A stretch of DNA of 64,000 bases. It comes from Betaproteobacteria bacterium. GTDB lineage: Bacteria > Bdellovibrionota_B > Oligoflexia > Silvanigrellales > Silvanigrellaceae. This document shows, piece by piece, positions 1 through 6,379 of this stretch. The stretch lies in assembly GCA_016868315.1 (NCBI GenBank), contig VGHE01000002.1:62001-126000 (forward strand), given 5' to 3'. How positions within the stretch are numbered: the first letter of the stretch is position 1; every line of letters starts with the position of its first letter. The notes under the pieces were generated by a model. It searched no databases and had not been told where the DNA came from. It saw only the letters and a program-made list of their open reading frames with translations. The position numbers and the translations under genes are program-made.

Positions 1-656
1 CCCATGGCGATTGCAAGTGTGGGGCGCAGCGCTGGAAGAATAACGTAACGGATGACCTCGCGCGTGTTGGCACCATCCATCTTCGCTGCCTCTTGCGCAG
101 ACTTTGGAAGTGCTTTGAGGCCTGCGTAGATAATAAGGAACAGGAAAGGCCACATGCGCCAAATGTCTTGAAGAACGATAGCCCAGAACGCCCAGAAGGA
201 GTCAGCCAATGGGGACATGGGTTCGTATCCAAGCGCATTGAAGATGGCACTCAGAGGCCCATCGTTGGGATCGTAGATATAGCGAAAGGTCAGACCCGAA
301 ACCACAGGCAGTACAAACATGGGCAGAATCAACAAAACTTCCACAACTCGTGGCAGTGGCTTTTGCAAATAGAGAAATAAAGCAACCGCCGCCGCAATCA
401 AAAGTTCTATAATGGTGGTGGTGATTGTGAAAAGCGCAGCCAAAGAAAGCGAGTTCCAGAAAGAGGCTTGGGAGATGAGTGCTTTAAAATGCTCAAGTCC
501 GGCAAAGTGTGCCTGAGCATCGGCGCCTGCACCAACGCTGTTGGTTAGTGAGGAAAATGCACTTTGCAGCACAGGCCAAGCAATCAATAAGGTGAGCAAT
601 GCACACCCTGGAAGAACGAAAGCCACAAGGGAGCGTTGTGAACGGGGAGAAAACAT
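1..656 (-). CDS. Sugar-type ABC transporter permease (MalF/UgpA-like), 3' end outside window
   Basis: Own reverse-strand translation: MFSPRSQRSLVAFVLPGCALLTLLIAWPVLQSAF...VEVLLILPMFVLPVVSGLTFRYIYDP...FLFLIIYAGLKALPKSAQEAAKMDGANTREVIRYVILPAL, with the EAA permease motif. ATG directly abuts the upstream stop (TAAATG). Missing from the ORF track because it runs off the window. Confidence 0.9.
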   Translation of the reverse strand, partial: MFSPRSQRSLVAFVLPGCALLTLLIAWPVLQSAFSSLTNSVGAGADAQAHFAGLEHFKALISQASFWNSLSLAALFTITTTIIELLIAAAVALFLYLQKPLPRVVEVLLILPMFVLPVVSGLTFRYIYDPNDGPLSAIFNALGYEPMSPLADSFWAFWAIVLQDIWRMWPFLFLIIYAGLKALPKSAQEAAKMDGANTREVIRYVILPALRPTLAIAM

Positions 657-1934
657 TTAGTGTGCCCCCTGCCTTTGTGTGCCACTCAGTGCGAGCTCAT
701 TCATACGCCCGAGTGCAGCTTGGATGTCCGACGCCGTTTCGGAGAGATTCTTTTGTCCTGCTATCCACCGTGTGAACGCCTTGCTCAAGTCGTCAGAGGT
801 GGAGCGGTACTGTTTGTGGCGTGGTCGGAGAAAAGCAGTGTTGAAATTCAGGTGCGTGGAGCCCAGCCATGGAAACTTTGTTGCCAAATCAGAACGGGTC
901 AGAAGGTCCGCACGTGCAGTGCTGAGGCCTTTTGGAATGAGTCCTTCGTTGACGTCTTTTGAGGTCCACCAGCGCACGAATGTTGCCGCGAGTTCTGCCT
1001 CTGCTGAGTTCTTGCGGATGCCTGCAATCCACGTTCCAGCGATTCCGTTTGCCTCGCTTCCGGGTGAAGGTGCGTAGCCCGTACGCCCTACCACAAGCGA
1101 CTTGTGTTCGTCCTCGAGGTCGAAGAAAAAACTGTTCCAAGTCATCATCTGAGCGACTCTGCCCTTGGCATAGGCCGACATGCGTTCAGTGTGATGCCAA
1201 GCCCTTGCAGCCTTTGGCGCTGTTTTTAGAAGGGCATCGTAGAGCTCGAGTGCACGCGCAACAGTAGGGGTATCGATGTGGGTCGCTCCGGGCTTATAGC
1301 CAAACCCTGCAAGCAGCCACAGCAGTTCGACCGTTGTTCCCTCAGACATTTTGGTGAACGGTGCAAACCCGTAGAGTTTCGGTGGTCGGTGAAAGAACTG
1401 AGCCAGTTCGAGCAGCTCTGTGAAATTGGTGGCAGGCTTCAGTGGGCGGTTGTACTGCTTTTGGAATTTGACCTGTTCGTTACTTTCTTCGAAGAGATCC
1501 TTGCGAAAAATATATTGATATACGTTGCCGTTAACTGGCAACCCGACCGTCACGCCTTGAAAACGAGCGGCTTCAATAGCCTTGCTCTCGAAGCCGGAGA
1601 GATCGTCCTGGGCACTGACTCTAGGCCATTGTTCAACGGGCAAAAGTGCTTCGTGGAACTGCGGGATAAAGGGTTCATCGACCGCGTAAACATCGTAGGT
1701 TCCGCCCGCTGCAAGGTCGGTCATCATTTTGGTGGCAACCGTGGAGGCTGGAATGTCGTCGAATTGAACGCGCACTGAGAACTCTTTTTCAAAGACAGGG
1801 AGAGCTGCCCTCAGAGCCGACGATTGCCGGTCTCGGAAGGTCAGAACTTTTAGCACGCGCTCTGGTTTCCGCGTGCAGGAGAGGCACACAAGGGTCAGTG
1901 CAGCCCCCAGGAAAAATTTATTTTTAAGGGACAT
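657..1934 (-). CDS. Extracellular sugar-binding lipoprotein of ABC transporter
   Basis: 425 aa, lipobox-like LVCLSC, family-1 solute-binding protein style sequence, adjacent to permease. Confidence 0.88.
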   Translation of the reverse strand: MSLKNKFFLGAALTLVCLSCTRKPERVLKVLTFRDRQSSALRAALPVFEKEFSVRVQFDDIPASTVATKMMTDLAAGGTYDVYAVDEPFIPQFHEALLPVEQWPRVSAQDDLSGFESKAIEAARFQGVTVGLPVNGNVYQYIFRKDLFEESNEQVKFQKQYNRPLKPATNFTELLELAQFFHRPPKLYGFAPFTKMSEGTTVELLWLLAGFGYKPGATHIDTPTVARALELYDALLKTAPKAARAWHHTERMSAYAKGRVAQMMTWNSFFFDLEDEHKSLVVGRTGYAPSPGSEANGIAGTWIAGIRKNSAEAELAATFVRWWTSKDVNEGLIPKGLSTARADLLTRSDLATKFPWLGSTHLNFNTAFLRPRHKQYRSTSDDLSKAFTRWIAGQKNLSETASDIQAALGRMNELALSGTQRQGAH

Positions 1935-2814
1935 CGTGACCCACCGCAGCCTTGAGCAAGTGGAACCAATCCTCGTGCTCCAGCTGAACTGTGAGTGCAG
2001 CTACAGCGGCCTTCAAACGTTCTTCCTTGCCTGTGCCAAGAACCGGAAGAATCTGCGCAGGGTGTCGCATAAGCCAAGCGTAGGCGATAGTCTCTGCATG
2101 CTCAACACGATATTTCTTGGCAAGTGTTTCAAGGCAGCTGCGAATATTACGGGAGCGGTCATCGCTGTGAGTAAACAGACGCCCACCAGCCAAAGGCGAC
2201 CATGCCATCGGCTTCATGTTCAATTCGAGGCATTGGTCGAGCTGGCCATTGTACATGGGAACTGTGTGCAGCAATGAAAACTCGATTTGGTTGGTTACAA
2301 GCGGAGCTTTGAGGCGCGACTGCAACAAACGCACTTGGTGTGTTGTGAAATTTGAAACGCCAAAGTGCAGAACCTTGCCCTGCTGCTGCAGCGCATTAAA
2401 AGTATCTGCAACTTCGTCGGGGTTCATCAATGGGTCTGGTCGATGAATCAGCAAAAGGTCTACGAAATCGGTTTTCAGATTCTTCAACGATTGCTCAACT
2501 GAACGAATAATGTGTTCACGAGACGTGTCGTAGGTTTTCAAGCCATGTTCTGGTCGCTGTGGCGAAACCAGCTTGATGCCGCATTTGGTAATGAGCTGCA
2601 TCTTGTTTCTTGGGATCTTGTGTTTCTTTACTGCGTCGCCAAACAGCTCTTCGCAACAGTAATTGCCGTAGATGTCAGCGTGGTCGAAAGTCGATATGCC
2701 GTGTTCGAGTGACATGAAGACTTTTTGGGCTACAGAATCTGTATTGGCCTCGGCAGGGATATCTGCCAGACGCCAAGCCCCGAAAATGAGGCGCGAGAAA
2801 GTTGGGTTATTCAT
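1924..2814 (-). CDS. Aldo/keto reductase (YdhF-like)
   Basis: AKR motifs: [12 protein letters not shown], ...[13 protein letters not shown]..., VLHFGVSNF; overlaps both neighbours by a few bp. Confidence 0.9.
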
Positions 2815-4022
2815 TGACGTTCTCCTGCTGCCAAAGGTGTGTTTGGAGGTGTCGTGGGAATGCGGCCTTGCAATTCAGCGAGTTTTCCGCGACGGAAGCG
2901 CGGCAGAATGTATTTTCCGACCAACCCACACTCGTCGAAGTGCGGATATCCGGAGAGAACGAAAGAGCGAATACCCATTTCAACGTAGCGGTTCAGCTTG
3001 GCAACGATTTGGTCGGGGTTGCCTACCAAAGCACAACCGCAGCCTGAACGCGCGCGCCCAACACCGGTCCATAGGAATTCTTCCGCATAGCCCTCGCTGT
3101 CAGCGAGGTCGCGCATCTCAGCCTGTTTTGCAACGCCAAAAGATTTTGAATCGAGTGCGCGCGAGCGAATCTCATTGCCTTTGTCGTCATCGAGCTTTGA
3201 AACAAGGCGCTGTGCTGCCGCACGAGCTTCAGATTCCGTCTCACGGACAATCATGTGGACTCGCAGTCCGAAGTCGACCTGACGTCCATAAGCTTCGGCG
3301 CGTCTGGTCATTTCCTGCATGTGCGAACGCAAACGGTCTTCCGTTTCGGGCCACATCAAAAACACATCGCATTCACGAGCACATAAATCGAGCGCATCCG
3401 GAGAAAGGCCACCGAAATAAAGGAGTGGACCACCGTTTTGCTGGTAGGGCTTGCAGGGTGCTGTGGGCAGGTTCAACTTGTAGAACTCGCCTTCGTAGTT
3501 GATGGATTCGCGTGTCCAACACTGACGCAGGATTTCGCACACCTCGCGCGATTTTGCGTAGCGGGCTTTGGAATCGAGCGTTTCGCCCGGAAGGTCTGAA
3601 GAGATGATGTTGACTGTGAGTCGCCCCTCGAGCATGTGGTCAAGAGTAGCGAGAGTGCGTGCCAGCATGGCCGGATGAACTTCACCGCAGCGGATGGCTG
3701 CGAGCAGGCTCATTTTCTTGAGCTGAGGTGCGAGTGCTGCGGCGAATGTGAGGGTGTCTTGTCCGACCTGGTAGCTGCTTGGGCAGAGCATGTTGTTAAA
3801 GCCCTGGCGCTCAGCTTCAAGCGCAATTTTGGATGTATTGGTCCATGAACTTTTGAGCTTGGAATCGGGCATTCCAAGGAATTCGAAGTCATCCGAGCAG
3901 ATCGGCGCGAACCAGCTCATCTCCACCACTTCAGGAGAGCGAGTGCGAGGAACAATACCAGCACTCAGAAGACCGTCAGTTGCAGCTTTCATTCGCGACG
4001 CTCCTTGCGAGAAAAAGAACAC
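2811..4022 (-). CDS. LLM-class FMNH2-dependent monooxygenase, SsuD/SmoC-like (sulfonate/sulfosugar desulfonating candidate)
   Basis: SsuD-like blocks: [83 protein letters not shown]. Start may be the internal Met at 3992. Confidence 0.87.
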
Positions 4023-4135: not shown

Positions 4136-5428
4136 TTAGATATAACTGGCGTTTCTTGCGCTGAATTCGAGTTCTTCACGCACCGTTGGGTGCGCAATCG
4201 CAATCAAAGCACGGGCCCGTTCGGCCACGCTGAGGCCAATCAGCTGTGCCACTCCGTACTCTGTCACAACAGTATCGATGTCATTTCTGCTGATTGAGAC
4301 CTTTGCCCCAGGCTTGAGTTCAAAGGAGATCTTGGAGGTCTTTTGGTCTGGGGTCATCGAGCGCAACGCAATTATACCACGCCCGCCCTCGGAGCGTTGT
4401 GCGCCTGTGTGAGTGTCAGTCGCTCCGCCAACGCCACTGAGTTCCCGGTGTCCGACCGATTCCGAACACACCTGGCCAGTGATATCGAGCTCGACGGCAC
4501 TGTTTATGGAGAACATTCTGAAGTTGCGGCAGATCCGGCTTGGGTCGTTGATGATAGATGCCGGGTAAAGCTCCAGCGCTGGGTTTTCTCCAACGAATTT
4601 GTAAAGCTCAGCAGAGCCATAGACGAAAGTTGCCACCATTTTGCGTGGCCAAAGGGTTTTGCGCGAACCATCGACAACGCCATGTTCGTAGAGTGTTTTC
4701 ATGGATTCGGTAAACAGCTCGGTGTGAATGCCCAGATTTTTTTTGTGGGTCAAACATTCTCCAACAGCGTTAGGAATACCACCGATTCCAAGCTGGAGTG
4801 TCGCTCCGTCTGGAACGAGTTCGGAGATGTATTTTGCAATCAACCGGTCTTGAACATTGGGAGCCTCTGGCTGCAGCACAGGAAGTGGGCGATCGTGGTG
4901 CAGAAAAAGCGTGACATCCTCGATCGACACGAAGGTGTCGCCGTAGACAATTGGCATGTTGGGATTGACCTCGAGAATCACATGTTTGGCCTTGCGCAGA
5001 ATCTCAGATTCATAGCAGGTGTTGATCCCAAGGCTGACAAAGCCTTTATCGTTGGGGAGGCTACAGGTTCCCCAAAACACGTCGATCTCGTGACGACGGT
5101 TGAGATTTTGAGCCCAGCGCGAAAGGTGCTGAGGAACATAGTGCACCAGATTGTGTCCCTGCGTGTTGCGGATTGCTGATGTTAGAAACATAACGTGAAA
5201 CTGAAGGTTTTCTGCGTGGCGAATATCTGTGAAGCACGTGTAGCTTTTGGTTGGGTTTGCGCAGTGGATATGTAGATTGCGATGTTTGTTTGCATGGAAA
5301 TGCAGGTTTTCAAAAAACAGCGCTGGCTCTGCTGCAGCCATTGCTGCAACAACATGACCAGAGTGGGGCAGCAGTGCAAAAGCATCAACCAAAGAACCCG
5401 ATTTCTTCAGCAACAAGTTATTACGCAT
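4136..5428 (-). CDS. Acetyl-CoA hydrolase/transferase family protein (4-hydroxybutyrate CoA-transferase-like)
   Basis: 430 aa; [25 protein letters not shown]-like block, [28 protein letters not shown]. Confidence 0.88.
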
Positions 5429-5434
5429 TTGTAT

Positions 5435-6379
5435 TTATCCCACGATAACCGGGCAGGGAGCCGCGCGCATAAATCTACTCGCCATCCTACCCATATGGAA
5501 GCGGCGTGTTCCTTCTTGGGAATGCCGGCCAAAGATCATTAAATCAATTTTGTTGTCCGTCACAAAGTTCAGGAGCTCTGATTGCGCGTGTCCGGTCAGC
5601 AAGTGCCCCAACGCGTGAAAGCCATCTTCGTTGAGAAGGCGTGCGCGATCCTGAACCGCACGTTCAAGGCGCGACTCTGCCATGTCGTAGATCATTTCGA
5701 GTTCACAATAGGTGGCGTAAGCATCGGAGGTTTCGAACCCGGAGTAGCCCGGTGCAACGCGCTCAAAGCAATGAGCAAGGTGAGCTAAGATACTACGCTG
5801 CTTATCGGCGCTGAGAATTTCGCGGAGGAGAGCCTCACTCAATTGCGCATCTGGTCGCAGCGCTGTCGCTAAACCGACGTTCTTAATTTTCAATGGCAGA
5901 TGTGTTTCGGTCACGGGAAGCACAATGACAGGAATCGGGCTTTGTTCGCAAACCCTCTGCGCTACACTTCCAAAAATCGCAGAATAGAGCCGTGCATGGT
6001 GATGACGTCCAATGACCACAGCACCGAATTTGCTTTGGTCAGCACCTACGAGAGCAAGTATCTCATTTTCCGCATTGCCCAACTTAACTTGTATATGGAA
6101 GTGTTCACCTTGTTCGCGCAGCGGATGCAAAGCTTTCTCCGCGCGTTCCTGGGTTTGGGCAAGAAGTTCGCCGCGATATCGCGTTTCGAGTTGCTCCCAT
6201 TTCTGGCCTTCCTCGAAGGGCATTGGACCGAGGAAAAGTGGTGCGTCCTCAAGAACATGAACAAAGCTCAGCGTGCTGTTGAATTGTTTGGCCAGTTCAA
6301 GCGCCGCTTTTTCAGTGCTCAGGGTTGGTTGTGACAGGTCAGTTGCGCAAAGAATCCGTTTGCCCTCGAGAATGCTCAT
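5435..6379 (-). CDS. Universal stress protein with two tandem Usp domains
   Basis: RILCATDLSQPT... and GAVVIGRHHHARLYSAIFGSVAQRVCEQSPIPVIVLP in domain 1; IDLMIFGRHSQEGTRRFHMGRMASRFMRAAPCPVIVG in domain 2. Confidence 0.88.
   Translation of the reverse strand: MSILEGKRILCATDLSQPTLSTEKAALELAKQFNSTLSFVHVLEDAPLFLGPMPFEEGQKWEQLETRYRGELLAQTQERAEKALHPLREQGEHFHIQVKLGNAENEILALVGADQSKFGAVVIGRHHHARLYSAIFGSVAQRVCEQSPIPVIVLPVTETHLPLKIKNVGLATALRPDAQLSEALLREILSADKQRSILAHLAHCFERVAPGYSGFETSDAYATYCELEMIYDMAESRLERAVQDRARLLNEDGFHALGHLLTGHAQSELLNFVTDNKIDLMIFGRHSQEGTRRFHMGRMASRFMRAAPCPVIVG

Follow-up and report, generated by a model that had tools for sequence, protein, structure and literature searches.

A predicted sulfo-SMO operon with a non-YihQ GH31 glycosidase in Silvanigrella-like bacteria

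We describe a six-gene bacterial operon which, with a probability that we put at about 0.86, serves the sulfo-SMO pathway for sulfoquinovosyl glycosides such as sulfoquinovose (SQ)-glycerol. The window analysed is the 64,000-nucleotide stretch 62001-126000 of contig VGHE01000002.1 (C2) of genome G000; coordinates with the prefix C2 are contig positions. The genes are arranged in the order smoC-smoB-SBP-permease-permease-GH31, all overlapping or abutting (Table 1), and this composition matches the set SmoB, SmoC, SmoFGH and SmoI published for Agrobacterium (PMC13219744, PMC13372026), which supports the sulfo-SMO reading; genomes with both SmoB and SmoC have been taken as sulfo-SMO positive (PMC13372026). 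Several features count against it, namely the lack of a PF01613 or PF00175 reductase in the genome, an aldo/keto reductase (AKR) nearer to YdhF, a GH31 without the sulfonate-binding residues, only a distant likeness to SmoF, and an SMO tree with an unresolved base.

In the proposed pathway the glycoside would be imported by the binding protein and the two MalFG-type permeases, energised by a MalK/UgpC-type ATPase encoded elsewhere, and SQ would be released from it by the cytoplasmic GH31. The SmoC ortholog would then cleave the C-S bond with O2 and with FMNH2 from an unlinked reductase, giving sulfite and 6-oxo-glucose, the latter of which would be converted into glucose by the AKR.

Structure and gene content of the operon

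Table 1. Genes of the predicted sulfo-SMO operon; positions are those of the window unless prefixed with C2.
Feature	Position	Strand	Remarks
smoC ortholog, FMNH2-dependent sulfoquinovose monooxygenase (predicted)	2811..3992	-	393 aa; best PDB matches 7oh2/7olf; Bac_luciferase 182 bits
smoB-type AKR, proposed to convert 6-oxo-glucose into glucose	1924..2814	-	PF00248 (Aldo_ket_red) 190 bits
Sugar-type ABC solute-binding protein (SBP), proposed SmoF-like role	657..1934	-	SBP_bac_8/SBP_bac_1 69 bits; N-terminal export signal
MalF/UgpA-like ABC permease (permease 1), proposed SmoG/H-like role, 5' part	1..656	-	BPD_transp_1 46 bits
Permease 1, remainder	runs past window position 1 to C2:61769	-	295 aa when read through the window edge
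Permease 2, MalG-like	C2:60934-61767		beyond the window
GH31 glycosidase	C2:58845-60932		beyond the window; 695 aa, no evident signal peptide

The original prediction described four tightly coupled minus-strand genes at window positions 1-4022, and both the coordinates and the Pfam matches bear this out: the AKR and monooxygenase genes overlap at the stop in ATGA, those of the SBP and the AKR overlap by 11 bp, and the first permease begins at 656 after TAAATG. For the monooxygenase the ATG at 3992, which is preceded by AAGGAG, is a likelier start than the GTG at 4022 of the mechanical open reading frame. The second permease that the prediction proposed to look for beyond position 1 was found there; a convergent gene comes after the GH31 gene at the far end. 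Neither a regulator gene nor SsuABC-type genes were seen in the operon. Directly upstream, also on the minus strand, are an acetyl-CoA hydrolase/transferase-family gene and a universal stress protein gene (4136-5428 and 5435-6379), a pair found in the same order in two relatives, G001 and G002. Assembly contamination was considered and rejected, since the operon is single copy, lies on a 470-kb contig and has the same flanking genes in these two relatives.

The monooxygenase, judged by its sequence, is a SmoC ortholog and not SsuD. When compared with the PDB by phmmer it scores 510 bits with 7oh2 and 501 with 7olf, followed by 203 for 7jv3 and 196 for SsuD; the two best structures, named 'alkanesulfonate monooxygenase' and 'methanesulfonate sulfonatase' in the PDB, we take to be the Agrobacterium and Rhizobium sulfoquinovose monooxygenases. 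Among the matches listed from the plasmid collection, the SMO group shows 49-61% identity, after which identity drops to 37% for a protein annotated SsuD. In the tree the monooxygenase falls among SMOs, whose basal order is unresolved, and the branch leading to SsuD is very long. A set of six SMO proteins (both PDB SMOs and four plasmid homologs, from two Rhizobiaceae, Ruegeria and Novosphingobium) shares 55 invariant residues that differ in SsuD and in one distant LLM protein; the monooxygenase keeps 42 of them, and it also keeps every Arg, His, Trp and Tyr of the SsuD active site that SMOs have in common. Could the gene nevertheless serve SsuD-like alkanesulfonate scavenging and stand beside a sugar operon by accident? 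The top NCBIfam model is indeed SsuD, though at 243 bits against a cut-off of 518; with the SmoC structures 2.6-fold above SsuD in score, and with a sugar-type importer and a GH31 rather than SsuABC-type genes in the same conserved operon, we regard this explanation as highly improbable and reject an alkanesulfonate function. The earlier preference for a sulfosugar over alkanesulfonates, and the expected grouping with SmoC, are thus upheld.

The AKR carries the catalytic motifs DHADIYG, TKCGI and IHRPDP. The caveat that it looks YdhF-like was well placed: among solved structures the YdhF type is closest (284-289 bits), followed by 7bby, presumably SmoB, with 234 bits. It is 49% identical to YdhF and 43-44% identical to the SMO-adjacent AKRs of Rhizobium, Ruegeria and Flavobacteriaceae, and the SMO-linked AKRs compared fall in the same YdhF/SmoB group. 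The sequence thus fits a SmoB role rather than proving it.

For the protein called a binding lipoprotein in the original prediction, the assignment as a sugar-type SBP stands by its Pfam families; the lipoprotein label is softer, as the lipobox is non-canonical (CLS-C20), yet Cys20 is invariant in four orthologs. Its PDB matches are weak, including SmoF 7nbz at 31.5 bits (E 7e-7), so by sequence comparison it is only distantly related to SmoF.

Unlinked partners and known systems

A flavin reductase is absent from the operon, so that the NADH:FMN reductase looked for nearby did not turn up in linkage with it, and the genome lacks both PF01613 (the SmoA/HpaC family) and PF00175 (the Fre type) under searches in which the controls were detected. 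One unlinked PF03358 FMN_red protein of the SsuE family, at C8:90560 and adjoining a nitroreductase, is a candidate FMNH2 donor. A linked reductase is likewise absent from several SMO clusters, among them that of N. aromaticivorans, and hence is not required for sulfo-SMO (PMC9594981). The ATPase to be looked for beyond position 1 does exist, about 8 kb past the operon, as a UgpC/MalK-type protein that passes the NCBIfam UgpC model (467 bits, cut-off 432), and it may energise the importer. A MalK-like ATPase on contig C3 is a less likely partner because it adjoins a PotD-like binding protein. Sulfite might be exported by a TauE-family exporter encoded at C1:7200.

Compared with the Agrobacterium smo locus (SmoA-SmoI), the operon has counterparts of SmoC, SmoB, the ABC binding protein and the two permeases as well as a GH31, but it has no linked SmoA flavin reductase, no linked SmoE ATPase and no regulator gene that we saw; its GH31 falls outside the YihQ/SmoI group and its host is Oligoflexia-like. 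The Novosphingobium sulfo-ASMO system also combines an SMO, an AKR and a GH31 with no linked flavin reductase (PMC9594981), whereas its GH31 is YihQ-type, an ABC importer is absent and its SMO is only 51% identical. The SMO clusters of Ruegeria TM1040 and Rhizobium SL42 share the smoC-smoB adjacency, with SmoC 59-60% identical; unlike the present operon, they have a TRAP transporter, a linked flavin reductase and, in the place of the GH31, a Gfo/Idh-family neighbour that is a GH188-type candidate.

The GH31 glycosidase and its counterparts in other phyla

A GH31 sulfoquinovosidase was to be looked for beyond position 1, and a GH31 is directly there, although not of the YihQ type. Known GH31 sulfoquinovosidases form one monophyletic YihQ group (PMC13219744), and GH188 is an alternative family (PMC10755693). 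In the tree, YihQ and the Novosphingobium GH31 split off at 100/100 with the operon GH31 outside. Nor does the alignment keep the YihQ positions R301, W304 and Y508, which we take to be the sulfonate-binding Arg/Trp/Tyr triad; the YihQ identity was rejected on these two grounds. NCBIfam gives 376 bits with the YicI model and 195 with YihQ, both below cut-off, and YicI, at 27% identity, is the closest characterised GH31 overall. As in the YicI alpha-xylosidase clade, the catalytic nucleophile and acid/base Asp are conserved (KTD437FGEE, WAGD502). The clade differs in gene context and in the -1 subsite motif DC[FY]W, in place of which the operon GH31 has an inserted Arg, reading LDARAWMRAQTRTDF instead of FDCFWMKAFQWCDF. 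Across the operon GH31s the loop is LDARAWMRA[QT]TRTDF against FDC-FWMKAFQWCDF in YicI, with one inserted residue and two Arg (LDARCWMDPNTRTDF in the G005 version); from YicI and alpha-glucosidases, this loop presumably borders the -1 subsite on its C5/C6 side. AlphaFold models of the GH31 (three sequences, pLDDT 45) and the binding protein (four sequences, pLDDT 46) are too poor for use, so our statements on the pocket derive from alignment.

Similar GH31s were found elsewhere. A plasmid of Deinococcus peraridilitoris encodes one with the motif LDGRAWLEVDTRC; beside it are sugar ABC genes and genes for a PfkB kinase, an aldolase of the LacD type and a FucI-like protein, the last with a single NCBIfam match, the sulfoquinovose isomerase SftI, at 139 bits against a cut-off of 700. 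Among 397 Actinomycetota genomes searched through homology to GH31, three have a DGRAW-motif GH31 whose neighbours include a kinase resembling YihV and a FucI-like protein, and one of the three also has a LacD-like aldolase. SqvD isomerases belong to PF02952 (PMC9594981), a model whose cut-off is reached by one of these FucI-like proteins and narrowly missed by one from a cluster of G235. Fisher's test of the inserted-Arg GH31 against sulfo-pathway context gives 3e-7 (9/9 against 0/17), which overstates the case, as five of the nine are the related operons that began the enquiry, with G005 split over contigs, and the negatives were hand-chosen; a fairer count takes the two lineages to which GH31 homology alone led, with 4/4 genomes. 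None of the examined loci with a YicI-type DC[FY]W GH31 has a sulfo-EMP-like set, and one has a YihS-like neighbour. In the tree a single branch, whose support is weak (69/36), sets the RAW sequences apart from the others; a single origin of the inserted-Arg GH31s is possible on this basis.

Other arrangements were also observed. In two Actinomycetota loci (L097 of G235 and L098 of G149), a GH31 with a DPDW motif accompanies a YihT homolog (50-54% identity), a YihV-like kinase and a FucI-like isomerase, together with ABC permeases in the former; this GH31, too, is non-YihQ and stands in a sulfo-EMP-like cluster. On a Haloarcula halophila plasmid (L051 8557-12084), a YicI-related GH31 (LDPFWMRANKSTDL) adjoins a UgpC-type ATPase, sugar permeases and a putative sulfate exporter. 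On an Emticicia oligotrophica plasmid (L022 6489-12417), an SMO homolog (55%) precedes genes for a sodium/solute symporter and a GH95 glycoside hydrolase, the latter unusual company for an SMO.

The higher YicI score and the missing YihQ triad would also suit an operon whose core handles free SQ by sulfo-SMO while the GH31, as an ordinary enzyme of the alpha-xylosidase or alpha-glucosidase-like sort, acts on some other glycoside. We consider this rather unlikely: the GH31 is the only one in the genome (E below 1e-15), and its gene closes the operon, immediately next to that of permease 2; it has lost the YicI motif (DC-FW to DARAW, QW to TR), and similarly inserted GH31s stand in sulfo-EMP-like clusters of two other phyla. 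A GH31 pocket and a binding protein that differ from the SQ prototypes, together with related SMO genes that adjoin other glycosidases such as the GH95 of Emticicia, could instead point to the same chemistry on another 6-sulfo sugar, be it sulfofucose, sulforhamnose or a sulfonated glycan fragment. Such a substrate seems improbable, given that SmoC retains most residues common to SMO homologs and that in the SMO clusters of Rhizobium and Ruegeria the same core comes with AKRs of the YdhF/SmoB type. In the preferred reading, that of sulfoquinovosyl glycosides, the non-YihQ GH31 is probably a sulfoquinovosidase. We further lean, by a slight balance, towards placing it in an undescribed non-YihQ type of sulfoquinovosidase, marked by the D-[AG]-R-[AC]-W insertion and the following pocket-loop Arg, which would be used with sulfo-SMO in Oligoflexia and with sulfo-EMP-like pathways in Deinococcus and Actinomycetota.

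Conservation, host range and meaning

All six genes occur in the same order in three other genomes, two of the same genus (G001/L004 and G002/L005) and a third from a different family of the class (G029/L006), with protein identities of 62-89%; this arrangement, including the two further genes, is therefore not due to chance. The surrounding gene block is common to G000, G001 and G002 and is not found in G029. At E below 1e-90, an SMO was detected in 6 of the 58 genomes of the phylum searched, showing the core to be patchy. G005 has a smoC fragment at the end of one contig and permease-permease-GH31-ATPase (MalK-type) on another, and in G018 a MalK-type ATPase comes after smoC-smoB. In G049 (L029 2176-3543), smoC-smoB is followed by an open frame that, by our reading of its sequence, resembles a GPH-type sugar symporter; from this frame, SQ uptake systems seem to have been swapped within the class.

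Reviews name alpha/beta-proteobacteria as sulfo-SMO hosts (PMC9594981, PMC12890257), and the range was later widened to Actinomycetota and Spirochaetota (PMC13372026), in view of which the host was fairly called atypical. In the open-access literature, the scope of our search, we found no paper that treats sulfoquinovose and Silvanigrella jointly; the operon is of a known kind, and the open literature consulted on the pathway does not name its host group. Among named relatives, the nearest that has the operon is a metagenome-assembled genome labelled uncultured Silvanigrella sp. (SmoC 89% identical), the same genome as G001 by its match coordinates, and Silvanigrella belongs to Bdellovibrionota, Oligoflexia in the NCBI taxonomy. 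Isolate names suggest a lake origin for the relatives.

Few organosulfur compounds are as abundant as sulfoquinovose, the sulfur sugar of plants and algae. To find its degraders, surveys depend on glycosidases of the YihQ-type GH31 or GH188 kind and on the host groups already known, a range to which an intact sulfo-SMO operon in Silvanigrella-like bacteria adds. If the GH31 is indeed a second solution of its family to the same bond, it would explain clusters that seem to lack a glycosidase, and such clusters would escape yihQ-based surveys such as that of PMC13219744.
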